A stretch of 64,000 nt of DNA from Alphaproteobacteria bacterium (lineage in GTDB: Bacteria > Pseudomonadota > Alphaproteobacteria > Micropepsales > Micropepsaceae), in the NCBI GenBank assembly GCA_016125165.1, contig WGMH01000003.1, forward strand, positions 248,001 to 312,000, given 5' to 3'. This document shows positions 8,134-45,924 of the stretch, one piece after another. The notes beneath the pieces are model-generated. The model searched no databases. It was not told the origin of the DNA and saw only the letters and a list, made by a program, of their open reading frames with translations. Made by a program: the position numbers and the translations under genes. The stretch's first letter is position 1. Each line of letters starts with the position of its first letter.

Positions 8134-9252
8134 TCAGGTTTCCGTCAGGCTGAGCAAAATTACTACACCCAACGCCGGAAGAACGAAGAAACAGATATAG
8201 ACGAAATTCACGCAGAAGAATTTCGTAACCGTCCAGGGCCAGCTTTCGCCATAGAAGCGCTTCATCGCCAGAAGAAAATATATGCCGCCCAGGAGCCCAA
8301 GCCCCACAAGCAGAATCTCACCAGGCAGAAACTGGGCCACCGCTGCGGCAAACAGCATCAACACAAAACCCGCCGAATGCAGGTTCAGCGACAGGATCAG
8401 GTGGTCCACAAAAAAGAAGCGTTTGCGCTCGCGGAAATAGAAAAGCGCAAGAAGCCCGGCATATACCGGCATCAGGATGAAGAGCACGCGCGGTATCCAG
8501 TCGCTCAGCGGCTTGTTCAGCACGGCGGGATCGCTAGATACGTGCTGGAACCCGGCAAACATCTTCGCGCCGAAACTGCCGGCTTCGTCCTTCTGAGCGC
8601 TCTCGGTCATGCGGTTCAGAACCTTGCGCGCGCCTTCGGGCAGAGACGAGTGCACCGCCCCCACCGGCAGGAAGAAATAGGGCTTCACCGTCACAGTTGC
8701 ATCGTTGTCGTTGCCCTTGTTTTTGGTATCGATCACGATTCCGGATTTCTTTTCCTGCTCCACAAGATCCTTGTTGATCTTGGCGTCTGGCCCAGCCTTC
8801 ACGGTCATCGTGCCGTCGGGCGAATAGCGAACCGTTCCGGTTTGATGCACCTCCACCTGCAACTGCATGATGGCGATATCGGTAATCGACAGGATCAGGA
8901 AGAACACCAGCGACACGAAGAAATAGAGCCGCACGGCGGGCACATAGCGCTGTGTGCGCCCTTCGCGAAATGCCGAAGGCAATTCGCCCGGCTGGGCAAA
9001 CAGCGCCTTGGCAGTACGCAACACGCGGCTGTCAAGGCTCGCAATGTCTTCCAGAAAATCGTGCATCAGGATTTTCAGCGAGCGGCGATGCGTATCGCGC
9101 TCCTGCCCGCACACCGCGCAATAGCGCCCGATCAGGATGGCACCGCAATTGGGACATTTGGCCGAATCCAGTCCCTCCGCTTCCAGCGCCGAAGCGGCCA
9201 GGTCCCATGCCCGATCCGGCACGGGTTCCAGCGATGTGCCCCGCTCGCTCAT
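8134..9252 (-). CDS. DUF3667-like zinc-ribbon membrane protein (second paralogue)
   Basis: The 372-residue protein has an N-terminal zinc ribbon (CPNCG ... CAVCGQ), a conserved block with RVLRTAKALFAQPGEL and AFREGRTQRYVPAVRLYFF, one membrane helix, a loop of about 150 residues probably outside the membrane, and about four C-terminal helices. This matches the DUF3667 family, whose function is unknown. It overlaps its upstream paralogue by 4 bases (ATGA), so the two are translationally coupled and probably arose by tandem duplication. It is embedded between pdhC and lpdA, which is unusual; no link to the dehydrogenase is known. Confidence 0.8.
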   Translation of the reverse strand: MSERGTSLEPVPDRAWDLAASALEAEGLDSAKCPNCGAILIGRYCAVCGQERDTHRRSLKILMHDFLEDIASLDSRVLRTAKALFAQPGELPSAFREGRTQRYVPAVRLYFFVSLVFFLILSITDIAIMQLQVEVHQTGTVRYSPDGTMTVKAGPDAKINKDLVEQEKKSGIVIDTKNKGNDNDATVTVKPYFFLPVGAVHSSLPEGARKVLNRMTESAQKDEAGSFGAKMFAGFQHVSSDPAVLNKPLSDWIPRVLFILMPVYAGLLALFYFRERKRFFFVDHLILSLNLHSAGFVLMLFAAAVAQFLPGEILLVGLGLLGGIYFLLAMKRFYGESWPWTVTKFFCVNFVYICFFVLPALGVVILLSLTET

Positions 9253-10416: not shown

Positions 10417-11802
10417 TTACAATAACATCGAAGCGGGCTCTTCGATGAACTGTTTGAACACCTGCAGGAAGCGCGCCCCGGTCGCCCCATCGATCACGCG
10501 GTGATCGCAGGACAGCGTCACCGTCATCATGGTGGCGATGGCGAGCGCGCCTTTTTCCACGATGGGCCGTTGCTCGCCCATGCCCACGGCCAGAATGGCG
10601 GCATGGGGCGGGTTGATGACACCCGTGAACTGCTTGATCCCGAACATGCCGAGATTGGTGATCGCAAACGATCCGCCCTCGAATTCCTCCGGTTTCAGCT
10701 TCTTGGCGCGCGCCCGCTCGGCCAGCGACTTCACCTCGTTGGAGATGGTGGAAAGCCCTTTTCCTTCGGCCGCCATCACGATGGGGGTGATGAGCCCGAA
10801 ATCCAGCGCCACCGCCACGCCGATATCCGCGTGCTTGTGGCGCAGCATGGCGTTGTCGGTCCAGCTTGCGTTGACCTCGGGCACGCGCATCAGCGCCAGT
10901 GCACTGGCTTTCACCACGAAATCGTTGACCGAGAGCTTGAAACCGTTTTCCTTCGGGCTCGCCGCATTCAGCTTGGCGCGCATCGCCATCAATTCGTCGA
11001 TGCGGCAATCGATGGTCAGATAGAAATGCGGGATCAGCGTCTTGGCGCTCGTCAGCCGCCGCGCGATCGCCTTGCGCATGGAATCGTGTGGAATTTCCTC
11101 GAAGGTGCCATCCTTATAGAACAGCCGCGCATCCGGCAGCGGCGCGATGCCGGCAATCTGTGCGCCTGCGGCAGCGGGTACGGCCTGCGGCGCCGTTTTC
11201 GCGGGCGCTGGCGCGGCTTTCGTCACGCCGCTCTTTTCCGCCGCTTCCACATCGGCTTTTACGATGCGTCCACGCGGGCCGCTGCCCTGCACCGCCGCGA
11301 TGTCGATACCCGCATTTGCCGCCATGCGCTTGGCGAGCGGCGATGCAAACACGCGCTCCCCCTTCGCTTCCGGCGCGGCGGCAGCCGGTGCCGATGCAGG
11401 CTTTAGCGCTTCCGCCTTCGGGGCCTCCGCTTTGGCTTCGGGCGCCTTCACCTCCGGCGCTTTGGGTGCAGCAGGCTTGGCCGCTTCCTTGGTGACCGTT
11501 TCCTTGCTCACCGCATCCTTGATCGATGCCATCGCGGCGGAAATGTCCTTGGCGCTCTCATCATCGCCCAGCAGCACCGCGATGGGATCGTTCACCTTCA
11601 CGGCTTCGGTGCCCTCGGGAACGAGAATTTTTCCGATCACCCCTTCATCGATGGCTTCGAACTCCATCGTCGCCTTGTCGGTTTCGATCTCGGCCAGGAT
11701 GTCGCCGCTCTTTACCACATCGCCTTCCTTCACCAGCCACTTGGCGAGCTTGCCCTCTTCCATCGTGGGCGAAAGCGCAGGCATCAGGATGTTGGTGGCC
11801 AC
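10417..11802 (-). CDS. pdhC: Pyruvate dehydrogenase complex E2, dihydrolipoamide acetyltransferase
   Basis: The 461-residue protein has one lipoyl domain (Lys43 in [11 protein letters not shown]), a long Ala/Pro/Lys-rich linker, a peripheral-subunit-binding domain ([15 protein letters not shown] about residue 150) and a catalytic domain ending with the acyltransferase motif [13 protein letters not shown]. It moves acetyl groups from E1 to CoA. The start is GTG, overlapping by one base the TAG of the preceding GFA-type gene. The DNA of its lipoyl region is almost the same as that of pdhB. Confidence 0.97.
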
Positions 11803-27069: not shown

Positions 27070-28599
27070 ATGGCCATCGAACCTGACTACGCGGCCTTCG
27101 CGCCGGCTTACGATGCCGGACGTCCGCAGGCGCTCTACACAAAGCTGATCGCCGATCTGGAAACGCCGGTCTCGGCGTATCTGAAGCTTGCCACCGGCCG
27201 CGACAACGCCTTTCTCCTCGAAAGCGTTCAGGGCGGCGAAGCGCGCGGGCGCTATTCGATCATCGGCCTGAAGCCCGATCTCATCTGGCGCTGCCGCAAT
27301 GGCAAGGCCGAGATCAACACCAGCGCGCGCGCCAACCCCGATGCCTTCGTGCCCGATGCGGATGCCGATGCGCCGCTCACCTCGCTGCGCAAGCTGGTGA
27401 AAGCCACGCAGATGGAATTGCCGCGCGGCCTTCCGCCGATGGCTGCCGGTCTTTTCGGCTATCTCGGTTACGACATGGTGCGGCTGATCGAAACCAGGCT
27501 CGGCCCCGCCCAGCCCGATCCGCTCAATTTGCCCGATGCGATCCTTTTGCGGCCCACCCTCGTCGCCATCTTCGACAATGTGCGCGACGAGATCACGCTC
27601 GTTTCGCCGGTGTGGCCGGAAGCGGGACTGGACTCGCGCGCCGCTTATGCGCGCGCCTCCGAGCGCCTGATGGATGCGATTGCCGATATCGAGCGCCCCG
27701 CGCCCGCAAGCCCCGCGCCGCCCGAAAACCTGCCCGCGCTTACGCAGGCCGAATCCAACATCAGCCACGACGACTATCTCGCCATCGTGGAGCGCGCGAA
27801 GGAATATATCCGCGCGGGCGATGCGTTTCAGATCGTGCCCAGCCAGCGCTTCCGCCGCCCCTTCGCGCTTCCTTCCTTCGCGCTTTACCGGGCGCTCCGC
27901 CGTCTCAATCCGTCGCCCTTCCTCTATCACCTCGCCTTTCCGGGATTTTCCATCGTGGGATCGTCTCCGGAAATCCTCGTGCGCCTGCGCGATGGCACCG
28001 TCACCATCCGCCCCATCGCCGGAACGCGCCCGCGCGGCAAAACGCCGGAGGAAGACGCCGCCCTCGCCGATGAACTGATGCACGACGCGAAGGAGCGCGC
28101 CGAACATCTCATGCTCATCGATCTCGGACGCAATGATGTGGGCCGCATCGCCAAAACCGGCACCGTGAAGGTGACCGACAGCTTCTTCATCGAACGCTAC
28201 AGCCATGTGATGCATCTCGTCTCCAACGTGGAAGGCGAAATCCGCGACGGCCTCGACGCCATCGACGCCCTCGCCGCCGGCCTTCCCGCCGGCACGCTCA
28301 CCGGCGCGCCGAAAATCCGCGCCATGGAAATCATCGACGAGTTCGAGAAGGAACGCCGTGGCGGCGCCTATGCCGGCGCCGTCGGCTACTTCGCCGCCAA
28401 CGGCTCGCTCGACACCTGCATCGTGCTGCGCACCGCGGTGGTGAAAGACGGCATGATGTATGTGCAAGCCGGCGGCGGCGTCGTCGCCGACAGCATCCCC
28501 GAAGCCGAGTATCAGGAGACGGTCAACAAGGCGAAGGCGCTGATGGCGGCCGCCGAAGAAGCGGTGCGGTTCGCCAGCAGCGCGAAGCGGGGGCAGTAG
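27070..28599 (+). CDS. trpE: Anthranilate synthase component I
   Basis: The 509-residue enzyme has the N-terminal Anth_synt_I_N region (LLESVQGGEARGRYSIIG, which forms the tryptophan-feedback site) and the chorismate-binding domain with GSSPEILVRL, IRPIAGTRPRG and the metal-binding EKERRGGAYAGAVGY. It makes anthranilate from chorismate with ammonia supplied by TrpG. In many alphaproteobacteria trpE is followed closely by trpG; here about 5.8 kb of other genes lie between. I saw no Trp-rich leader peptide; it is probably co-transcribed with the PpiD-like gene. Confidence 0.97.
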   Translation: MAIEPDYAAFAPAYDAGRPQALYTKLIADLETPVSAYLKLATGRDNAFLLESVQGGEARGRYSIIGLKPDLIWRCRNGKAEINTSARANPDAFVPDADADAPLTSLRKLVKATQMELPRGLPPMAAGLFGYLGYDMVRLIETRLGPAQPDPLNLPDAILLRPTLVAIFDNVRDEITLVSPVWPEAGLDSRAAYARASERLMDAIADIERPAPASPAPPENLPALTQAESNISHDDYLAIVERAKEYIRAGDAFQIVPSQRFRRPFALPSFALYRALRRLNPSPFLYHLAFPGFSIVGSSPEILVRLRDGTVTIRPIAGTRPRGKTPEEDAALADELMHDAKERAEHLMLIDLGRNDVGRIAKTGTVKVTDSFFIERYSHVMHLVSNVEGEIRDGLDAIDALAAGLPAGTLTGAPKIRAMEIIDEFEKERRGGAYAGAVGYFAANGSLDTCIVLRTAVVKDGMMYVQAGGGVVADSIPEAEYQETVNKAKALMAAAEEAVRFASSAKRGQ

Positions 28600-28631
28600 C
28601 GGCCAAATACCAGCCCCAGCTCTGCCAAGCT

Positions 28632-28657
28632 TGAACAATTCGCTGTATTCTGTTCAC
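28632..28657 (+). repeat. 26-bp repeat, copy A (TGAACA-N13-TGTTCA)
   Basis: TGAACA, ATTCGCTGTATTC, TGTTCAC. It matches copy B at 43785-43810 at all but one base, and the match extends outwards (CCAAGCT before, G/C-rich GACGG-like after). An inverted copy C is at 45899-45924. It lies 32 bases after the trpE stop, at the left edge of an accessory stretch. Confidence 0.85.
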
Positions 28658-28782
28658 GCGACAGCGGTAACGTCGCCGAAGAAAGTCTAGCTGGCGGATC
28701 AGCGAAAACGGCGCTAGGACGCGGGATAATGTAGTTTCGGAACCTACTGCGAACTGTATCTCGCATTTTGTAAAGACTGAGA

Positions 28783-29565
28783 ATGCGCATGGCCTTCCCG
28801 CAGAACCTAGTTCGAGCCCACACCGAGAGCGAACGGCTCCGGGGTGAAAGCATTTCAGCAATCGAAGCTTCGGAAGACTTAAGCTTCCATGCTCATGTGA
28901 TAGAGCGCACGGCAAACCTGCTCTATTTTCTGGGGCACGATGGCGAAATCAAAAATGACGACGACCGCGTCATTCGCGTCCTCGGGTTTCGTGGCTACAA
29001 CGACGTTATAACGTCAGCAAATCTGATATTGGGTGGCTACTACCAGCCAGCCATGATGATAGCTCGTGACCTTCTGGAGCTTAATTTCTTGCTGGATGAC
29101 TTCACGCGCGACAAATCACAAATCGAAAAATGGCGTACTTTGCCTCCAAAGGAATACGACAAAATATTTAAGCCCGTACTTGTTCGCGATCGTCTGGATC
29201 AACTAGATGGTTTCAGCGGTTTAAAACGCGCAAGCATTTACAAACTGATTTCGAGCGTTGCGGGGCACCCGAGCCCCGCAGGGTTCCAAATGCTCTTGAG
29301 ACCTGACGGTAACTATTTTTGCGGACCATTTGTTGAGCCCAAGTCCATTGACGCCTGCTGGTCCGAACTCGCAAAGACCGTTATCCAAATTGGCGGTCAC
29401 TTTCAGAAATTTTTTGCGCTGACATCGAAGGAAGTCGTGATGGCGAAAGTTGAATATCTCGAACTTCAGAATCGCTGGCTGGAACGGTTTTTTGGAAAAG
29501 CCCCATTTGACGTAACCAAGATCGCAGAAATGCGTTCCATGGCTGACCAATTACCTCCCCGTTAG
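28783..29565 (+). CDS. Hypothetical protein, accessory region
   Basis: I do not recognise this 260-residue soluble protein. It looks mostly helical, with MMIARDLLELNFLLDDF in the middle, WRTLPPKEYDKIF after it and aromatic-rich QKFFALTSKEV and LQNRWLERFF helices near the end. The region is richer in A/T than the flanking core genes and has atypical codons, which suggests acquired DNA. It follows repeat copy A by about 125 bases and is followed after 8 bases by another unknown gene on the same strand, so the two probably form an operon. Start could also be the second Met. Confidence 0.65.
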   Translation: MRMAFPQNLVRAHTESERLRGESISAIEASEDLSFHAHVIERTANLLYFLGHDGEIKNDDDRVIRVLGFRGYNDVITSANLILGGYYQPAMMIARDLLELNFLLDDFTRDKSQIEKWRTLPPKEYDKIFKPVLVRDRLDQLDGFSGLKRASIYKLISSVAGHPSPAGFQMLLRPDGNYFCGPFVEPKSIDACWSELAKTVIQIGGHFQKFFALTSKEVVMAKVEYLELQNRWLERFFGKAPFDVTKIAEMRSMADQLPPR

Positions 29566-29573
29566 GACGCGCG

Positions 29574-29984
29574 ATGAGATTTTCTCACCCAGACGGAGGT
29601 CATTTTGAGATTCCAGACGACTGGTGGAGGGATGCCGGGATGGAAGCCGTCTCGCCTTCAAGGGATAGCTATCTATCAGAACTGGATGCGGATCATCCTT
29701 CATATCCGCTTCAAATAGTGAGTGTGAGCGAAATTGTTCCGTTCAGAAGAAGCGAAAGCGCGGAACTAGATTTTGGTGGCTTCGACCGTAAGCGCATGAT
29801 GAGTTTGCTTTCTGGTATTGCTTCGGATTCCGTAATTAAACCCGTGAAGCTCAAATCTTACACGGCAGACAATTCCGTATATCGGTACCAGCTTTATGAC
29901 GGAGCGCACCGATACCACGCTTCGATTGCAGCCGGGTTTAAGCTTATTCCCGGAATAGTGTGTCAGTGGGGCTTCGAGTGTTAA
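29574..29984 (+). CDS. Hypothetical protein with ParB/sulfiredoxin-like motif
   Basis: The 136-residue protein ends with YQLYDGAHRYHASIAAGFKLIPGI, which looks like the DGHHRxxA box of the ParB-N/sulfiredoxin fold; the preceding IKPVKLKSYTADNSVY would be the strand that usually reads PIxV. This fold binds nucleotides and, in ParB, works as a CTP switch or phosphotransferase; the role here is unknown. The gene starts 8 bases after the previous unknown gene and shares its A/T-richer composition. The pair may be one module inserted after trpE. Confidence 0.6.
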   Translation: MRFSHPDGGHFEIPDDWWRDAGMEAVSPSRDSYLSELDADHPSYPLQIVSVSEIVPFRRSESAELDFGGFDRKRMMSLLSGIASDSVIKPVKLKSYTADNSVYRYQLYDGAHRYHASIAAGFKLIPGIVCQWGFEC

Positions 29985-30142
29985 TAGAAGCGCCGAACAC
30001 TCCTCTAACTGCAAAGCGCCCCTTCAATCTCGTTCCAACATCGTCGCGCTAACGTGTGGCAATTAAGGGGAAATAATACCTATTTCCATGACCTTCCCAC
30101 ACCTCCCCTGCGCAATGCCAGCGCCCGACAGCAAACTTTAAC

Positions 30143-30405
30143 CTACAATATCGCTTCAATCCCTTTCCGCCGGATCACATTCAGAAGCACAAGCGCGGGA
30201 CCGCCCGGATTCTTGATCCCGCGTTAGCGTTGCGAGACGTAGCCTGTCGTCAAATTCAGACAATATGCGAACACGACCTGACTCATGCGCGATTGCTTGC
30301 GCATCGCGCGGATTTCGCGCGGGGTAACCGGCGCCGTCGGCGCTCCATATCGCCTGCCGTTTCCAGCAACGCCTTCGCGCGTTTCGTTTGCTTCGCCTTC
30401 GCCAT
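30143..30405 (-). pseudogene. Decayed HTH antitoxin gene (HigA-like)
   Basis: Reading the minus strand from 30405 gives MAKAKQTKRAKALLETAGDM, the usual start of a family of HTH antitoxins. The reading then shifts frame near 30345 into PVTPREIRAMRKQSRMSQVVFAYCLNLTTGYVSQ. After that a TAA at 30226-30224 stands where the family has the Glu of WERG. The same frame goes on as RGIKNPGGPALVLLNVIRRK to a natural stop at 30143. So there is one internal deletion with frameshift (about 30 family residues are missing) and one nonsense change. The gap 29985-30142 holds nothing I recognise. Confidence 0.8.
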
Positions 30406-30440
30406 CAGGCAATCTCCGTCAGCAACACATCGGTGTTTCT
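30405..30440 (-). pseudogene. Possible 3' remnant of the matching toxin gene
   Basis: Eleven codons ending NTDVLLTEIA-stop, with the TGA overlapping the ATG of the decayed antitoxin (TGATG), as expected for a toxin-antitoxin pair. Upstream sequence to 30492 no longer reads as a toxin. The stretch is very short, so this is only a suggestion. Confidence 0.3.
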
Positions 30441-30492
30441 AGTCCGCCTCCACCTCCACCGACATATGTCCCGCCCGGCGCTTTGGCGCGCG

Positions 30493-31230
30493 CTAACCCA
30501 GAAGCGCCGATGCGGCCCAGATCGCGCCCGCGCCCAGAAGCGCCAGCACCGCAACAAGGCCGTAAGCGCCCCGGCGCATGCCGATGAACATGCGCTTGAA
30601 TTCCTCCCGGTCGTTCACACGCGGAAACGGCGTTTGCGGAACCGGCACGTTCAAAAATTTGCACAAGGGCTCCCAGCCTTCGGCGGCCGAGAAGATCAGC
30701 AGCTTTTCCGGCGGCACCGCCGCCTTCACCGCTTCGATATGCGCGTTGTAGAACGCAATCGCGGCGTCGCGGTTTTCCATCGTGCCCTTGTGCGCGCGGT
30801 CCCAGATCAGGCGTTTCACCATGTCGTTGAACCTGCGCATCGGCGGAATGAAAAACGCCAGCAGCTTCGGCTCCCACATGCGCTGCGGCGCATAGATGGT
30901 TTCCATCGTGCTTTCATACCAGGCGTCCGGCCCCTTCGGGTGCACGTTCAGAAGCACCTTCGCATCGGGATAGGCCACCATCAGCTCGCGCCACACACAG
31001 CAGGCCGGGTTGTCCACCGCGGCGGTGTAGTCCGCGAACACCTCTTCCCAGTTGAATTGCGTGCCTTCGGGGGCGCTGGCCACCTTCTGCCAGAATTCCA
31101 CATGGCCCGCGTTCTTCGGCTTCCTCACTTCGAACATGTGGTAGCAGGGAAAGCCGATCTCGGTCAGCGCGGTGTAGGTGGACATGGTGCCGGTGCGGCC
31201 AAAGCCTGCGCCGATGATCTTCAATGGCAT
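30493..31230 (-). CDS. Sulfotransferase-family protein with C-terminal membrane helix
   Basis: The 245-residue protein starts MPLKIIGAGFGRTGTMSTYTAL, a P-loop-like site for the 5'-phosphosulfate of PAPS as in the Sulfotransfer_4 family, and has VLLNVHPKGPDAWYEST, where family members usually keep the 3'-phosphate site. A hydrophobic helix at the very end (about residues 222-243) would tie it to the membrane. Bacterial members are widespread but mostly without known substrate. It lies 20 bases downstream of the DUF1801 gene; in-frame sequence upstream of the chosen ATG overlaps that gene and was rejected. Confidence 0.8.
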   Translation of the reverse strand: MPLKIIGAGFGRTGTMSTYTALTEIGFPCYHMFEVRKPKNAGHVEFWQKVASAPEGTQFNWEEVFADYTAAVDNPACCVWRELMVAYPDAKVLLNVHPKGPDAWYESTMETIYAPQRMWEPKLLAFFIPPMRRFNDMVKRLIWDRAHKGTMENRDAAIAFYNAHIEAVKAAVPPEKLLIFSAAEGWEPLCKFLNVPVPQTPFPRVNDREEFKRMFIGMRRGAYGLVAVLALLGAGAIWAASALLG

Positions 31231-31250
31231 GCGAATCCCCCGATTGGTCC

Positions 31251-31670
31251 TTATGGTTTTGCGCGGTTCAACGCCGCCGCCGCGCGCACCAGCGCCTTGA
31301 ACGCTTTCTCGTTGATCGCCTGGCCTTCGGCAATATCGATGGCGCGGCGCACATTGCCGTCGAGGCTGGAATTGAACAGCCCCGCCAGATCCGGCAGCGA
31401 AGCGCCCTTGGCAAAGGTGAGCTTCACTTTGTCCCTGTAAGTCTCGCCCGTGCAGACGATGCCGCCCTTCTCCCACACCGGCACGCCGTCCGGATTGGAT
31501 GGCTTCTTCCACTTGCGCGTTTCGCTCACCCCCGGCACCGCTTCGGCAATGAGCGCGCGCACGCGGTTCAGAATGTCCACGCGCCAGTCCGCTGCGGGTC
31601 TGGAGGCTGGCGGCGGTGCTGCGGGGGCTTTCGCCTTCGGCTTCTGCGGCGTGCGCTTCGTTGCTTTCAT
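31251..31670 (-). CDS. DUF1801 (YdhG-like) protein
   Basis: The 139-residue protein has a Lys/Pro/Ala-rich N-terminal tail of about 30 residues and a compact domain with VPGVSETRKWKKPSNPDGVPVWEKGG, VKLTFAKGASL and RRAIDIAEGQAINEKAFKALV. These blocks match DUF1801, a small alpha/beta fold of unknown role that is common in bacteria. I took the ATG giving MKATKRTPQKPK; longer readings overlap the upstream gene. It sits between a deacetylase-like gene and the sulfotransferase-like gene, on the same strand and closely spaced. Confidence 0.78.
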   Translation of the reverse strand: MKATKRTPQKPKAKAPAAPPPASRPAADWRVDILNRVRALIAEAVPGVSETRKWKKPSNPDGVPVWEKGGIVCTGETYRDKVKLTFAKGASLPDLAGLFNSSLDGNVRRAIDIAEGQAINEKAFKALVRAAAALNRAKP

Positions 31671-31683
31671 ATCCAATATCCTA

Positions 31684-32748
31684 TCATCGACGGGCGAATG
31701 AGCGTGCATCCCGCTCCGCCTGAAGGCCGATGGCGGTCTGGACATCGACCAGCTCGAACCCTTTCAGTTCCACATCCCGGCTCCACGCCGCCACCGCCTT
31801 CAGCGTATCGGGGTGTGGGTGGCCAATGGCGATAGCAACGCCGTGCGCGCGCGCCACCCGCTCGGTTTCCGCCAGTTGCTGCAGGATCGCCCCCGGCGCC
31901 ACCGCATCATCCAGAAAGACATCGCGCATGCCCGAAGGCACCCCGATGATCCGCGCAATCTCCGCCGCCACCGATTGCGGCGCGGTACGGGAGTCGAGAA
32001 AGAACACATGCCGCGCCGAAAGCGCGCGCATCACCGCGATCACGCCCTCGCGGTCCTGCGTGAAGCGGCTGCCCATATGATTGTTCATGCCCGCCGCATT
32101 CGGCACGCGCTGAAAGGCCCGGTTCAGGCGCTCGCTGAGCTCATCGGCGGTCAGCGTGGTGAAGAGTGCATCCGGGCCGGGATTTTCGCGCCCTTCCGGC
32201 TCCATCGGCATGTGCAGCAGCACCTGATGCCCGCGCCTCGCCGCTACGCGTGCAAGCGCAGTGGCGTCTGGCGGGTAAGGCAGGAATGACAGCGTGATTT
32301 TCCGTGGCAGCGCAATCGCTGCGCGCGCCGCCTCAACATCAATGCCCACGTCGTCGATCACGATGGCGATGGCCGGGCGCGGCGCATCGGTTTGCCCCGA
32401 TGCGGAAAGGGCCGCTTCGCCATGTTCGCGAATGAAGGCCACGCGCTGCGTCAGCCAGTCAGGAAAGCCGCGTGCGGGAACCGGCGTTAGAACCTGGGTG
32501 GCATACCGTGTTTCGCCATGGGCCACATCCACCGGCATCACCATTTTTTCAGCCGGTCCGCTGGCGCCCGCCTGCGCCGCCATCAGTCCGGGCGGCAGCA
32601 ACATCTGCGCAAGCGCGGGCAAACCGCGCGCAGCGCTTGGGCCGGCCACAAGCAGAGCCACGCTCAAAAGCAGCCAGAACGCGGCCAGCGCCGATGATTG
32701 CACCGGGTCGCGCAGAAGCCATCGCCGAATCGATTCGATGCGCCGCAT
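31684..32748 (-). CDS. Divergent polysaccharide deacetylase family protein
   Basis: The 354-residue protein has one N-terminal membrane helix (about residues 20-40) and a NodB-like barrel with IAIVIDDVGID near residue 128, LLHMPMEPEG near 176, NNHMGSRFT near 222 and IAIGHPHPDTL near 320. These are the blocks of the divergent polysaccharide deacetylase family, related to carbohydrate esterases of family 4 and found near envelope genes in alphaproteobacteria. It likely works in the periplasm; the glycan substrate is not known. It ends 13 bases before the DUF1801 gene. Confidence 0.88.
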   Translation of the reverse strand: MRRIESIRRWLLRDPVQSSALAAFWLLLSVALLVAGPSAARGLPALAQMLLPPGLMAAQAGASGPAEKMVMPVDVAHGETRYATQVLTPVPARGFPDWLTQRVAFIREHGEAALSASGQTDAPRPAIAIVIDDVGIDVEAARAAIALPRKITLSFLPYPPDATALARVAARRGHQVLLHMPMEPEGRENPGPDALFTTLTADELSERLNRAFQRVPNAAGMNNHMGSRFTQDREGVIAVMRALSARHVFFLDSRTAPQSVAAEIARIIGVPSGMRDVFLDDAVAPGAILQQLAETERVARAHGVAIAIGHPHPDTLKAVAAWSRDVELKGFELVDVQTAIGLQAERDARSFARR

Positions 32749-32800
32749 GACCCAAGTGGAATCTCTGCCCCTTGGCTGTCAACGCATTGGCGCGGCGAAG

Positions 32801-34300
32801 CTATTTCATGGTCGGGATGACGAAGCTCGCATTCTCGCGCACGCCGCCCTTGGGCCAGCGCTGCGTCACGGTCTTGATGCGGGTCCAGAAGCGCACGCCT
32901 TCCGGGCCATGCTGGTTCACATCGCCGAAGGCACTGCGCTTCCAGCCGCCGAAGGTGTGATAGGCCAGCGGCACCGGGATCGGCACATTGATGCCCACCA
33001 TGCCCACCTGCACGCGCGACGCGAATTCGCGCGCCGCATCGCCATCGCGGGTGAAGATGGCAACGCCATTGCCGTATTGGTGCGTAGTCGGCAGCGCGAT
33101 TGCTTCGTCGAAATCCCTGGCGCGTGCGATCTGCAGAACGGGGCCGAAGATTTCGTCCTTGTAGGTCTGCATGTCTTTGGTCACGTGGTCGAACAGCGAG
33201 CCGCCGAGGTAGTAGCCGTTCTCATAGCCCTGAAGCGAGAAGTTGCGGCCATCGACCACGAGCTTGGCGCCTTCCTTCACGCCCATGTCGATATACTGCT
33301 TCACCTTCTCGCGGTGCTGTGCCGTTACGAGCGGCCCGTAATCGGCGTCCGGATCGGTCGAGATACCAACGCGCAGGCTCTCCACGCGCGGCTTCAGCTT
33401 GGCCACCAGCGCATCGGCCGTCTTCTCGCCCACGGGCACGGCAACCGAGATCGCCATGCAGCGTTCGCCGGCCGAGCCATAGCCCGCGCCGATCAGTTCA
33501 TTCGTCACCTGATCCAGATCGGCGTCCGGCATGATGATGGCGTGGTTCTTCGCCCCGCCCATCGCCTGCACGCGCTTTCCGTGCGCGGTGCCGCGCGAAT
33601 AAACATATTCGGCGATGGCCGATGAGCCCACAAAGCTCACCGCCTGAATGTCCGGGTCTTCCAGGATCGCGTCCACCGCTTCCTTGTCGCCGTTCACGAC
33701 CTGCAGCACGCCCGGAGGCCCGCCCGCTTCCAGAAACAGTTCGGCCAGCCGCATCGGCACGCCGGGGTCTTTCTCGGAAGGCTTGTTGATGAAGCAGTTG
33801 CCGCAGGCAATCGCCACGCCGAACATCCACATCGGGATCATTGCCGGGAAATTGAACGGCGTGATGCCGGCAACGACGCCGAGCGGCTGGCGCATGGAAT
33901 AGATGTCGATGCCCGGCCCCGCGCCTTCGGTGTATTCGCCTTTCATCAGGTGCGGAATGCCACAGGCGAATTCGATCACTTCAAGGCCGCGCTGGATGTC
34001 GCCCTTGGAGTCGGCGATCACCTTGCCGTGTTCCGCGGAAAGAATGCGCGCGAGCTCGTCCATGTTCTTTTCGACGAGCGCCTTGAAGTTGAACATCACG
34101 CGGGCGCGGCGCTGCGGGTTCACGGCCGACCATGCCGGGAACGCTTCCCGCGCCACTTCGACGGCCTTGCGCATTTCCGCGCGGCTCGCCAGCGCCACCT
34201 TGCCGGAGACCTCGCCAAGCGAGGGATTGAACACCTCGCCGAAACGTCCGGACGTTCCCGAAACCGCTTTTCCGGCGATGAAATGGCCATAGGTGTTCAT
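32801..34300 (-). CDS. mmsA: CoA-acylating methylmalonate-semialdehyde dehydrogenase
   Basis: The 499-residue aldehyde dehydrogenase has the catalytic cysteine Cys281 in GSAGERCMA, the NAD-binding FVGSSAIAEYVY segment and INKPSEKDPG, all typical of MmsA. It lacks the general-base glutamate motif of ordinary hydrolytic ALDHs, as expected for a CoA-dependent enzyme. It turns methylmalonate semialdehyde into propionyl-CoA in valine (and inositol) breakdown. It is divergent from trpG with 142 bases between starts and is not in an operon with other valine genes here. Confidence 0.95.
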   Translation of the reverse strand: MNTYGHFIAGKAVSGTSGRFGEVFNPSLGEVSGKVALASRAEMRKAVEVAREAFPAWSAVNPQRRARVMFNFKALVEKNMDELARILSAEHGKVIADSKGDIQRGLEVIEFACGIPHLMKGEYTEGAGPGIDIYSMRQPLGVVAGITPFNFPAMIPMWMFGVAIACGNCFINKPSEKDPGVPMRLAELFLEAGGPPGVLQVVNGDKEAVDAILEDPDIQAVSFVGSSAIAEYVYSRGTAHGKRVQAMGGAKNHAIIMPDADLDQVTNELIGAGYGSAGERCMAISVAVPVGEKTADALVAKLKPRVESLRVGISTDPDADYGPLVTAQHREKVKQYIDMGVKEGAKLVVDGRNFSLQGYENGYYLGGSLFDHVTKDMQTYKDEIFGPVLQIARARDFDEAIALPTTHQYGNGVAIFTRDGDAAREFASRVQVGMVGINVPIPVPLAYHTFGGWKRSAFGDVNQHGPEGVRFWTRIKTVTQRWPKGGVRENASFVIPTMK

Positions 34301-34442
34301 GCGAAAACCCCGTTTGTCTGGAATTGACTACGGGGCATATCGCGCCGCTGTGGCGGTTTGTCCAGCCCTTGCGGTCCGCGCGAGGCAGGGCGTCGCATCA
34401 AGTCCGTAGCGCCGCCAAAATCGGTGCTATAGATTGGCCCGC

Positions 34443-43784: not shown

Positions 43785-43810
43785 TGAACAATTTGCTGTA
43801 TTCTGTTCAC
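43785..43810 (+). repeat. 26-bp repeat, copy B (left end of the recombinase unit)
   Basis: TGAACA, ATTTGCTGTATTC, TGTTCAC. It is in the same orientation as copy A (28632) and inverted relative to copy C (45899). It ends 26 bases beyond the stop codon of the DAC-like gene. Confidence 0.85.
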
Positions 43811-43836
43811 GGACGACGGATGAGACTGATTTGTCT

Positions 43837-45159
43837 TTAATTGGTGGTGGTTAGCCCCACCAAATCAACGTTCTTGCTAACATGAATATGGCCCTTCGTA
43901 GGAGACCATACAGCACTGACTGGCCCATCTTGCGAAACGACCAAGATCAAGAGATCGGGACATTGGCTCACGAGCTTAATTGCAGAACGATGCCTCATGC
44001 CAAATTGCTCGACATCGAGAGCATCAAGTTTTCCAAGACGATCATCTACCGACTCAAACACCTTTATGCTGTCGTTTAGCTCGGCACGAATCTCCACCCC
44101 AAAACCTCGCAGATGTAACTCCCTCGACAACATTATCGCTCCATCGCAACCAGCTAAGTCCGCGACCCACTTGATTGCTCTGGCCATATTGCCACACAAT
44201 TCGTCGAAATCTGCTCTATCTAGCAAGAGTTGACGGACCAGATCACGCACCCTTTTCATGCTCGCCGGCGGTCGTTTGCGCGTGGCTGAGTCCAAATCAA
44301 TCAGTTTGTGGTGCTGGTTGACGAACGAGATATATGACGATCTTAACCGATCCGAGTCCATTTTGTACTTCATACGCAAAACGCCGGATAATTCCCCGCT
44401 ATCGCACGGTGCAATAATGAGTGCTCCTCCGTGCCCCCTTGCACTCATCAAATTTGCAATGCCAGCATACGTGTTCCAAAGCGAGATTTTCTCGAACGCC
44501 TCCGCTTCCGGCAATTCCCTTTTTCGATTTATGGTGGGCCTTGTGAAATTCCCCGCCATTCCTTTTGTTGAGTCTGCTACATAGGATGTAAGTGCTCCTA
44601 CATATTTGCGCCCCCATCCGGCAATTTGACCGTCAATCAATGAAGCAATGTGTGTACCGCTGTGGTATACTTTAATAAGACCTTGCCGTGTAACTCGAGT
44701 GAGCAAACACTGTGGCGCGGAATATACGAATCCCGTACCTAACATTGCCTCATGCCAGGATGTTCCAAAGTCAACAATACCTACGATCTTTAGTTTTGTG
44801 CGATTCCACTCAACCCAAATCGCGGATGAAGCCGGATCTAGCGCGGGTGCGACTCGTCGAATCTCATTGGGAGAATAGTCTCGATACTTGGCAAATCGAG
44901 AGCAGCGGCCGATTTGGTCGGGAGCCTTGTCGTTCAATGGCGGGGTTATCGCTAGATTGAATTGTAAATATCTGCCTTCTTCGGGAAGCCCTGCTGCTGT
45001 AAAGGCATGTTCAAAGAGTGTCCCTAGTACCCGCTTCGGCGGACATTCCAATGGTTGAAAATCTATGGGCAGGTTTTTGACAAAAGCAAACCTTCTCTCC
45101 TCCATATATTTCCAGCGCTCGTTTACGCTGCGTGCTAGGTCGATTGGAAAAGCCGTCAT
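43837..45159 (-). CDS. Protein with diadenylate-cyclase-like (DisA_N/DAC) domain
   Basis: The 440-residue protein (from the ATG giving MTAFPIDLARS; a GTG at 45216 would add 19 residues) has no membrane segment. Its last third resembles the DAC fold of c-di-AMP synthases: DGAIMLSR (DGA, about residues 339-341), GMRHRSAIKLV (RHR, about 389-391) and LILVVSQDGPVSAV. In DisA and CdaA these motifs bind ATP and metal. The middle has RGHGGALIIAP, reminiscent of DAC-derived sensor domains found by comparative genomics (DACNV group). It may make a dinucleotide or only sense one. It follows the recombinase gene by about 75 bases. Confidence 0.65.
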   Translation of the reverse strand: MTAFPIDLARSVNERWKYMEERRFAFVKNLPIDFQPLECPPKRVLGTLFEHAFTAAGLPEEGRYLQFNLAITPPLNDKAPDQIGRCSRFAKYRDYSPNEIRRVAPALDPASSAIWVEWNRTKLKIVGIVDFGTSWHEAMLGTGFVYSAPQCLLTRVTRQGLIKVYHSGTHIASLIDGQIAGWGRKYVGALTSYVADSTKGMAGNFTRPTINRKRELPEAEAFEKISLWNTYAGIANLMSARGHGGALIIAPCDSGELSGVLRMKYKMDSDRLRSSYISFVNQHHKLIDLDSATRKRPPASMKRVRDLVRQLLLDRADFDELCGNMARAIKWVADLAGCDGAIMLSRELHLRGFGVEIRAELNDSIKVFESVDDRLGKLDALDVEQFGMRHRSAIKLVSQCPDLLILVVSQDGPVSAVWSPTKGHIHVSKNVDLVGLTTTN

Positions 45160-45233
45160 TGGCGCGCCCCATCTGATGCAAAAAGCACTTGGAGCAAGAC
45201 GATACCCCAAATTCACTGGTTGGCGCTTGAGGT

Positions 45234-45857
45234 TTATTTGTATACGTCGGTCGCGCTTTCAGGAATTGCGAGTTCTAACGAACTCCATGCTCGGCGAGCG
45301 AGATTTCGCTCCTCGTCGCCGATCGCGCTTGCGTAAATTGCCGTCGTCTCGATCCGCGCGTGACCGAGCCAGCGTTGGACAATGTTGAGAGGAATACCCT
45401 TCTGTCCCGCTTCGACGGCGAATGCGTGACGTAGCGATTTGGGCTTACAAAGGCCTTCGGCAATTCCCGCTTTCCGCATCACGGCCTTGACCACCTTCCA
45501 TCCATTTGTACGGCCCCAAGGCCAGAGGCGACCAACTTTTTCGATACCGTATACTGTAAGAAGTGGGATCAAAGCGCGAGGCACAGGCACGGCACGATAT
45601 ACCTGCTTTTTGCGCTGCTTCAGCGTCTCAAAAATGATCGCTTCGTCGGCAGTATCGACGCGGCTGACGGTCAATGCCAGCGCTTCGGATATTCGTGCCC
45701 CTGTGAACGCCAAGGTGAGGCAGAACGTTGAGATCGCTTCAGGCTCTTTGGACGCAGCATAGACAAACGCCAATCGTTCCCTCGCAACGAGATATTTGCG
45801 GTTGCCGCGTTGATCGAAGAGTACCGGTGTCATTGGCACAATCCTTTCGCCGACCAT
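45234..45857 (-). CDS. Single-domain tyrosine recombinase/integrase
   Basis: The 207-residue protein is only the catalytic domain of a phage-integrase-type recombinase: Arg55 in FTGARISEAL, a Lys near 80-84, KSLRHAF (Arg143; Lys140 where His is usual), LGHARIETT (His166) and the nucleophile Tyr175 in TTAIYAS. The N-terminal core-binding domain is absent, so it may bind short sites or need a partner. The start is uncertain (ATG at 45857 or 45833; no good ribosome-binding site). Repeat copy C lies 42 bases upstream, where a promoter would be, so the enzyme might also control its own gene. Confidence 0.87.
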   Translation of the reverse strand: MVGERIVPMTPVLFDQRGNRKYLVARERLAFVYAASKEPEAISTFCLTLAFTGARISEALALTVSRVDTADEAIIFETLKQRKKQVYRAVPVPRALIPLLTVYGIEKVGRLWPWGRTNGWKVVKAVMRKAGIAEGLCKPKSLRHAFAVEAGQKGIPLNIVQRWLGHARIETTAIYASAIGDEERNLARRAWSSLELAIPESATDVYK

Positions 45858-45898
45858 CGAAAAAATCGAGGCCGGACGATTGACGCCGGAAAGGAATA

Positions 45899-45924
45899 GT
45901 GAACAGAATACAGCAATCTGTTCA
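45899..45924 (-). repeat. 26-bp repeat, copy C (inverted, before the recombinase gene)
   Basis: On the minus strand: TGAACAGA, TTGCTGTAT, TCTGTTCAC. This copy is a perfect 8-bp inverted repeat around an asymmetric 9-base centre, the usual build of a tyrosine-recombinase crossover site. Copies A and B share the centre except for one base in A, and the right arm exactly. Confidence 0.85.

Follow-up and report, generated by a model that had tools for sequence, protein, structure and literature searches.

What kind of unit lies between gltA and lpxB in the 64,000-nucleotide stretch of alphaproteobacterial DNA analysed here (the window), and is it mobile? An initial annotation had noticed a tyrosine recombinase at this place, next to a protein resembling diadenylate cyclases (DACs); the two flanking gene names are taken from it, and their fit to the open reading frames (ORFs) was judged by eye. 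The unit consists of the following features.

43785-43810, plus strand: distal terminal site, with outer arm TGAACAATT, centre TGCTGTA and inner arm TTCTGTTCA(C)
43837-45159, minus strand: passenger gene for a 440-aa DACNV-DAC protein with the motifs DGA, GMRHRSA and SQDG
45234-45833, minus strand: 199-aa tyrosine recombinase, catalytic domain only
45899-45924, minus strand: proximal terminal site, inverted copy of 43785-43810 with an identical centre, 65 bp ahead of the recombinase start

We consider it probable that this unit (43785-45924) belongs to a family of self-contained cassettes, in which a minimal recombinase between inverse core sites would bring about inversion or exchange and a passenger gene would pay the host. 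This reading draws on the anatomy of the unit, its recurrence, the matched centres of its sites, the varied passengers beside related recombinases and its absence from the locus in relatives, all of which are observed.

The cassette is a 2.1-kb (2140 bp) unit composed of the recombinase gene, the DACNV-DAC gene and a 26-bp inverted site at each end. Both genes are on the minus strand inside the arms, with 74 bp between them. Read inwards, the distal end is TGAACAATT-TGCTGTA-TTCTGTTCA and the proximal end TGAACAGAT-TGCTGTA-TTCTGTTCA. The two 26-nt arms are complementary at 24/26 positions (92%) and separated by 2088 nt; with uniform bases, about 0.0014 such inverted pairs are expected by chance per 64 kb. 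Every 26-mer end is a complete core site of the tyrosine recombinase type, with palindromic arms (TGAACA...TGTTCA) flanking the centre. The G+C content is 0.51 in the cassette vs 0.63 in the flanks. Thus the frame of inverted 26-bp repeats, the two same-strand genes between them and the A/T-richer DNA were all found as initially described. The initial annotation had not noted the palindromic ends of each 26-mer or the further copy of the site at 28632-28657.

The recombinase matches the Pfam family Phage_integrase (4.1e-17). Its length of 199 aa is counted from the start common to the alignment of relatives, and start and stop codons were checked. Among 18 aligned sequences R47, R135, H158 and Y167 are invariant and K72 and K132 invariant or almost so; we take these to be the catalytic residues of the tyrosine recombinase family, whose set R, K, K/HxxR, H, Y is present. 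A profile of the 18 relatives aligned with XerA/XerD chains over their C-terminal part alone (e.g. 138-302 of 317 residues). Hence the core-binding domain is missing from the recombinase, in agreement with its initial description as a one-domain enzyme.

gltA was found in 60 of the 69 genus genomes, and 30 loci, including that of the window, were fetched. In the other 29 stretches the end of lpxB is visible in 25 and not in four. The distance between the ends of gltA and lpxB is at most 150 bp in 21 of these 25 relatives and 236-911 bp in the other four, vs 2650 bp in the window, of which the cassette makes up 2140 bp. None of the 29 stretches contains the recombinase. The cassette between gltA and lpxB is therefore an insertion, at the position proposed initially, and the pair is not fixed at gltA in the relatives; fixation there would have spoken against its mobility. 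The relatives are too diverged at gltA-lpxB for the exact junction to be placed. One could also suppose that the DAC-like gene belongs to the native core genome and that the repeats are there by accident. This is hardly credible: we found nothing in its favour, the other 99 relatives have no homologue of the protein and no member of the DAC family (the control was detected in 11/14), and of the 385 genomes examined in the class two have DACNV, the window's own among them. From the same DAC and DACNV searches, no other DAC-type enzyme was seen in the window's genome.

The search for relatives of the recombinase at E <=1e-15 gave 37 matches spread over 19 of 100 genomes, one of which is the window's. 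The matches outside the window's genome are all covered by 34 wider loci that were fetched, which gives n=35 together with the window. An inverted site pair is present at 20 of these 35 loci and delimits elements of 742-5635 bp, in which one site starts 72-91 bp before the recombinase and the other ends 0.65-5.5 kb downstream (the 20 do not include the matches at L064 and L066, which looked like chance; a decayed pair is present in L064). At <=6 mismatches exactly two sites were found per fetched locus; the window has a third, 15 kb off. Six of the 20 elements (742-754 bp) contain the recombinase alone and look like insertion sequences, and the other 14 carry passengers. Some elements sit within larger islands. 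A gene reading by eye as relaxase-like lies upstream of four of them (L044, L046, L048, L052), and a lipoprotein gene occurs at three places in the 69 genomes, each at most about 0.6 kb from such an element; the searches with these two genes gave no clean empty site. A pattern search for the sites matched in 16 of the 69 genomes, the reversed control pattern giving one match. One genome (G021) has a 1045-bp site pair enclosing a 291-aa ORF, with no recombinase match.

In a wider set of 100 recombinase loci, from which 16 duplicate loci had been removed beforehand, a strict rule gave 26 long and 9 short inverted pairs, compared with 7 at 334 control anchors. No pair was found at 61 of the 100 loci, and 5 of the 39 matches look like chance (L074 and four rows labelled 'other'). 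The strict filter missed pairs detected earlier at L055, L057, L139, L146, L149 and L202. A second scan flagged 32 of 80 loci, of which L157, L158, L160, L162, L168, L187 and L198 (G+C-rich, chance-like) and the local pairs at L171 and L208 were not counted as cassettes. Outside these genomes, the same plan is found in records labelled Robiginitomaculum (L146, L152, L180), Rhodobiaceae (L186), Rhodospirillaceae (L149), Rhodospirillales (L139), Oceanibaculum (L213), Formivibrio (L143) and Verrucomicrobiales (L202, L207) and in an assembly labelled Patescibacteria (L148); since many of these are metagenome bins, the hosts are unsure. On a tree of 97 recombinases the cassette label, set by hand on 29 rows from the pair scans, requires 12 changes (at least 8 of them forced) vs 25.1 after shuffling, and none of 500 shuffles was as low. 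A clade of 47 rows, rich in Acetobacteraceae plasmid-type sequences, is free of it. The label is clustered on the recombinase tree, yet the labelled rows do not form one clade.

The passengers vary. The recombinases of L043 and L044 are each 82% identical to that of the window and sit at other loci with unrelated passengers. Those of L043 are a CAP12-type TIR protein (Pfam 2.4e-25; PADLOC 'Effector, TIR' 2.9e-29) and a nucleoside phosphorylase (5.3e-11), those of L060 match GmrSD_N (4.2e-25; NsnA model 1.3e-52) and FRG (5.2e-23). L045 carries an HNH_5 match barely above the cut-off, L046 an HTH_3 match below it, and L048 a 983-aa protein with cold-shock domains (3.3e-15) and an AAA match below the cut-off. 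The passengers of L044, L054/L183, L143, L149 and L202 gave no strong match. By eye, the passengers of L067 are sugar-related and those of L059 and L072 are secreted proteins. Since the passengers differ among the cassettes, the DAC-like gene is one of many and not a fixed partner of the recombinase; the idea of a recombinase-DAC pair as a fixed unit has to be given up, as related recombinases carry other passengers at other loci. With this amendment, the layout recurring around other passengers and the absence of the recombinase from the gltA stretches of 29 relatives support the small mobile cassette suspected in the initial annotation.

For 12 of 13 sites examined singly, G+C is lower in the first 500 bp on the inner side than on the outer side. 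The inner sides of three of these sites hold SIR2 (ThsA model 6e-22), TIR (SpbK model 1e-29) and AAA_15 proteins, and the inner-side genes of three further ones (L217, L219, L220) gave no strong match. PADLOC models matched at E <1e-18 at 4 of the 16 loci scanned (L043, L060, L218, L222), a bare count without a background rate that implies no enrichment; the passengers of L052, L057, L059, L067, L072, L073, L186, L216, L223 and L225 were left out of the scan.

Strand exchange between two sites requires equal spacers. Over the 20 elements, the central 8 bp of the two ends of one element differ by 3 mismatches in total, and 5000 permutations of the centres, which ignore kinship, averaged 85.9 and never fell below 44. 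In the same elements the outer nine columns have 29 mismatches and the inner nine 16. Across elements the centres vary (TGCTGTA, TGCCGTA, TGAGGCA, TGGGGGA, TGGCCGA, TGCCGAA and others), several elements having TGCTGTA. As centres are matched within a cassette and varied between cassettes, only like cassettes would exchange.

Dif modules are not known to carry a recombinase of their own. They resemble the window cassette in that a module lies between two inverse core sites with equal spacers, a likeness that for the cassettes is one of sequence. The complete cassettes differ from them in having their own recombinase inside, like, near-palindromic arms and one module per locus. In Acinetobacter, dif (pdif) modules are described as genes between inverse tyrosine-recombinase core sites, where single modules are replaced by others and recombining sites need identical or nearly identical spacers (PMC13141974). 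The same account gives them host XerC/XerD, two distinct arms, a 6-bp spacer and a location mainly in plasmid arrays (PMC13141974); chromosomal dif modules in Acinetobacter were reported in 2026 (PMC12907356). Its own recombinase and like arms place the cassette outside the definition of dif modules. The Acinetobacter dif module is the nearest known system, and by analogy the cassette would work as a dif module does, but with a recombinase inside.

A possible course of events is that the recombinase pairs the two ends of its own cassette. Since the sites are inverse and their spacers equal, conservative recombination between them would produce inversion; simple end-to-end excision is excluded by the inverse orientation of the sites. 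If a second molecule offered a like site pair, two crossovers in succession could replace one cassette by the other, a course that has been modelled for dif modules (PMC13141974). To enter a new locus for the first time, a cassette would depend on one like site there or on a different route, such as a single-stranded or circular copy.

Alternatively, the recombinase might do no more than invert its own segment to turn genes on and off, the unit as such not being mobile. FimB/FimE-type invertases, which likewise have about 200 aa and no core-binding domain, act on a short promoter segment that adjoins the recombinase gene and turn it over. Size, domain content and inverse sites of the window cassette are alike, and the matched centres would suit such a switch as well; in the window cassette, however, recombinase and passenger both lie between the sites. 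Two DNA-invertase models matched the recombinase (1.5e-8 and 5.9e-8), but both fell far short of their cut-offs and were weaker than the matches to XerA/XerD models. Loci of sister recombinases (L058, L061, L063, L065, L066, L068, L070, L071, L171), where two inverse palindromic sites with matched centres lie 129-148 bp apart upstream of the gene, look closer to the Fim plan than the window cassette does. Several of these loci have a small divergent gene (MANxYEAK-like, by eye) beginning on the opposite side. Yet among 8 short pairs from different genomes no flipped state was seen (forward z up to 8.7, reverse never >2.0), two of 28 short-segment comparisons leaning slightly to reverse with z <2. 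Furthermore, 12 of the 20 elements have a promoter-like motif (GTATAC or TATCGG) at most 30 bp beyond their proximal end, and no element has it beyond the distal one. The proximal-only motif and the lack of a flipped state in the short pairs disfavour frequent inversion. As related recombinases also stand beside different passengers at unrelated loci, and units of about 745 bp with the recombinase only exist, we regard a mere phase-variation switch as improbable.

No flipped, excised or empty form of the cassette was seen, the window element itself being represented by a single assembly state. The window element is among the 8 of 20 that lack the proximal promoter-like motif, and its copy may be silent. 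It might even be an inert relic in which the DAC-like gene is merely carried along, all the more as decayed recombinase copies are present in the window's genome and elsewhere (L051, L064, L224, L226). Both ORFs are open, however, the active-site residues are kept and the centres are identical at both ends, and we think this rather unlikely.

Mobility could also be that of a classical transposon, the terminal repeats being element ends and a circular or single-stranded copy being integrated as in RIT (recombinase in trio), SE (strand-biased circularizing) or GInt elements. This would suit the minimal insertion-sequence-like units, the genome with seven recombinase matches (G034) and the hairpin that the proximal site could form when single-stranded (-5.6 kcal/mol, z -4.1), the window's two distal-type sites reaching just -2.5 kcal/mol (z -1.4 and -1.9). 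RIT and SE too have terminal inverted repeats. Against it, both arms and the centre are repeated inversely, whereas an integrated circle leaves direct attL and attR, and there is one recombinase, not two or three. On balance a transposon of this type is not the likely explanation, and the exchangeable cassette remains our preferred reading.

Attachment sites attL and attR left by phage- or ICE-type integration are direct repeats. Such integration was rejected because the 20 elements are inverse-oriented, although these were selected by an inverse-pair search, the direct-repeat scan covering 17 loci without long pairs. A DDE insertion sequence is ruled out by the tyrosine recombinase; a target-site duplication was not seen by eye in any of the 20 elements. 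RIT elements are described with three tyrosine recombinases of 315-410 aa in terminal inverted repeats of 28-34 bp that are partly palindromic (PMC3414803, PMC10214605, PMC8138268). The window cassette shares with them the recombinase inside terminal inverted repeats, and differs by its one recombinase of about 200 aa with a passenger. SE is described with four core genes (two integrase genes and two more), imperfect repeats of 13-19 bp and differing 6-bp sequences beside the two ends, and both SE and GInts are tyrosine-recombinase elements with inverted ends and chromosomal targets (PMC10214605); the cassette has one recombinase and one passenger instead of four core genes. Recombinase count and gene content thus do not fit membership in RIT or SE.

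Searches of an incomplete open-access library gave no title or abstract that describes a one-recombinase cassette with inverse sites. Tentatively, and with less confidence than in the cassette reading itself, one may see here a new class of mobile elements: autonomous inverse-site cassettes with one catalytic-domain-only recombinase, a swappable passenger and built-in addresses, the passenger in the window being a stand-alone nucleotide-cyclase immune gene. If so, recombinases of about 200 aa, which are easily filed as fragments or resolvases, would point to the ends of small gene cassettes in Alphaproteobacteria and in the assemblies labelled Formivibrio (one) and Verrucomicrobiales (two). 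This would be a simple way to find passenger genes, including unknown defence genes, and the cassettes would make it possible to study by experiment how one module flanked by inverse sites moves, a process that has been modelled for dif modules.

The 440-aa passenger protein of the window cassette matches DACNV (PF21751) at residues 38-129 with 7.7e-16 and 58.5 bits, above the cut-off of 27, and DAC (PF02457) at residues 382-416 with 8.8e-05 and about 22.5-23 bits, below the cut-off of 27; only the second half of the DAC domain is recognised. DGA and RHR are present in this order, with methionine in place of the threonine usual before RHR. The only match among PDB sequences is a diadenylate cyclase chain (9g69, E 0.69), and the AlphaFold2 model from single-sequence input has a pLDDT of 29.8, too low to show the fold. 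The DAC likeness noted initially is thus borne out by the sequence, which supports kinship of the protein to DAC. One homologue was found in a plasmid record, and none was confirmed in genome_contigs (20 stretches), viral_contigs (129 stretches) or phages.

It was compared with 19 DACNV homologues from 20 fetched loci (L274-L293). DGA is kept in 18 of the 19, and the last arginine of RHR is missing in 18, being kept in L291 alone among them and also in the window protein and a Hymenobacter plasmid protein. Canonical diadenylate cyclases have SEE at the position of SQDG, which is common to the window protein, the Hymenobacter protein, L291 and nearly all of the 19 homologues. The homologues without the last RHR arginine may be sensors and not cyclases. 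Some of their genomes have up to three matches each. In the Hymenobacter monticola plasmid (L002, 5572-9098) the DACNV-DAC gene lies 68 bp after a gene for a patatin-like phospholipase, an adjacency that suggests a signal-effector pair; by eye, no such neighbour was seen at the 20 DACNV loci of the phylum.

Possibly, the DAC-like protein pays the host as a nucleotide cyclase triggered by stress or phage, or as a nucleotide sensor. In the phage-defence system DS-2, the predicted catalytic residues of a diadenylate cyclase are described as needed for defence, and this DAC is accompanied by cGAS and a phospholipase (PMC13092281); the DAC-like gene is alone in the window cassette. Because a diadenylate cyclase is needed in that validated system with CBASS genes, a role of the passenger in nucleotide signalling or sensing for defence is at most a fair guess. 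CBASS itself was rejected for the cassette, whose two proteins include neither a CD-NTase nor a CBASS effector.

At <=3 mismatches, the 3.04-Mb assembly (95.6% complete) contains only three copies of the site, namely the two ends of the cassette and a further one in the window.

28632-28657, plus strand: third, solitary distal-type site, 32 bp past the stop of an ORF reading by eye as trpE
28783-29984, plus strand: two G+C-poor ORFs inward of the solitary site (one of 260 aa lacking any Pfam match, the other of 136 aa with ParB_N below cut-off)

No inverted partner of the solitary site was found within 28660-31500. The ORFs reading by eye as trpE and trpG (28599-34434) are 5.8 kb apart. The solitary site and the two G+C-poor ORFs between trpE and trpG make a second, decayed cassette at 28599-34434 likely, of which these two ORFs were probably the passengers.

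Two C-terminal fragments of the same recombinase, 91% and 79% identical, were seen on another stretch (L013, contig C1 of G000, 8424-8657 and 11333-11458). They sit amid genes that read as metal-related, and the first adjoins a site copy with four mismatches. One site at 11103 of L047 and one at 1501 of L121 lie at the end of, or 174 bp past, ORFs reading by eye as P4-type integrases.

Eight of the 20 elements and 4 of the 11 labelled ones checked have an outward ORF of at least 80 aa whose start lies no more than 30 bp from the distal end. Such ORFs were seen 11-25 bp off the distal site of L048, L052, L054, L057, L060, L067, L069, L073, L149, L152, L180 and L186. Nine of the twelve start 13-18 bp from the distal end, and their beginnings are often lipoprotein- or export-like.
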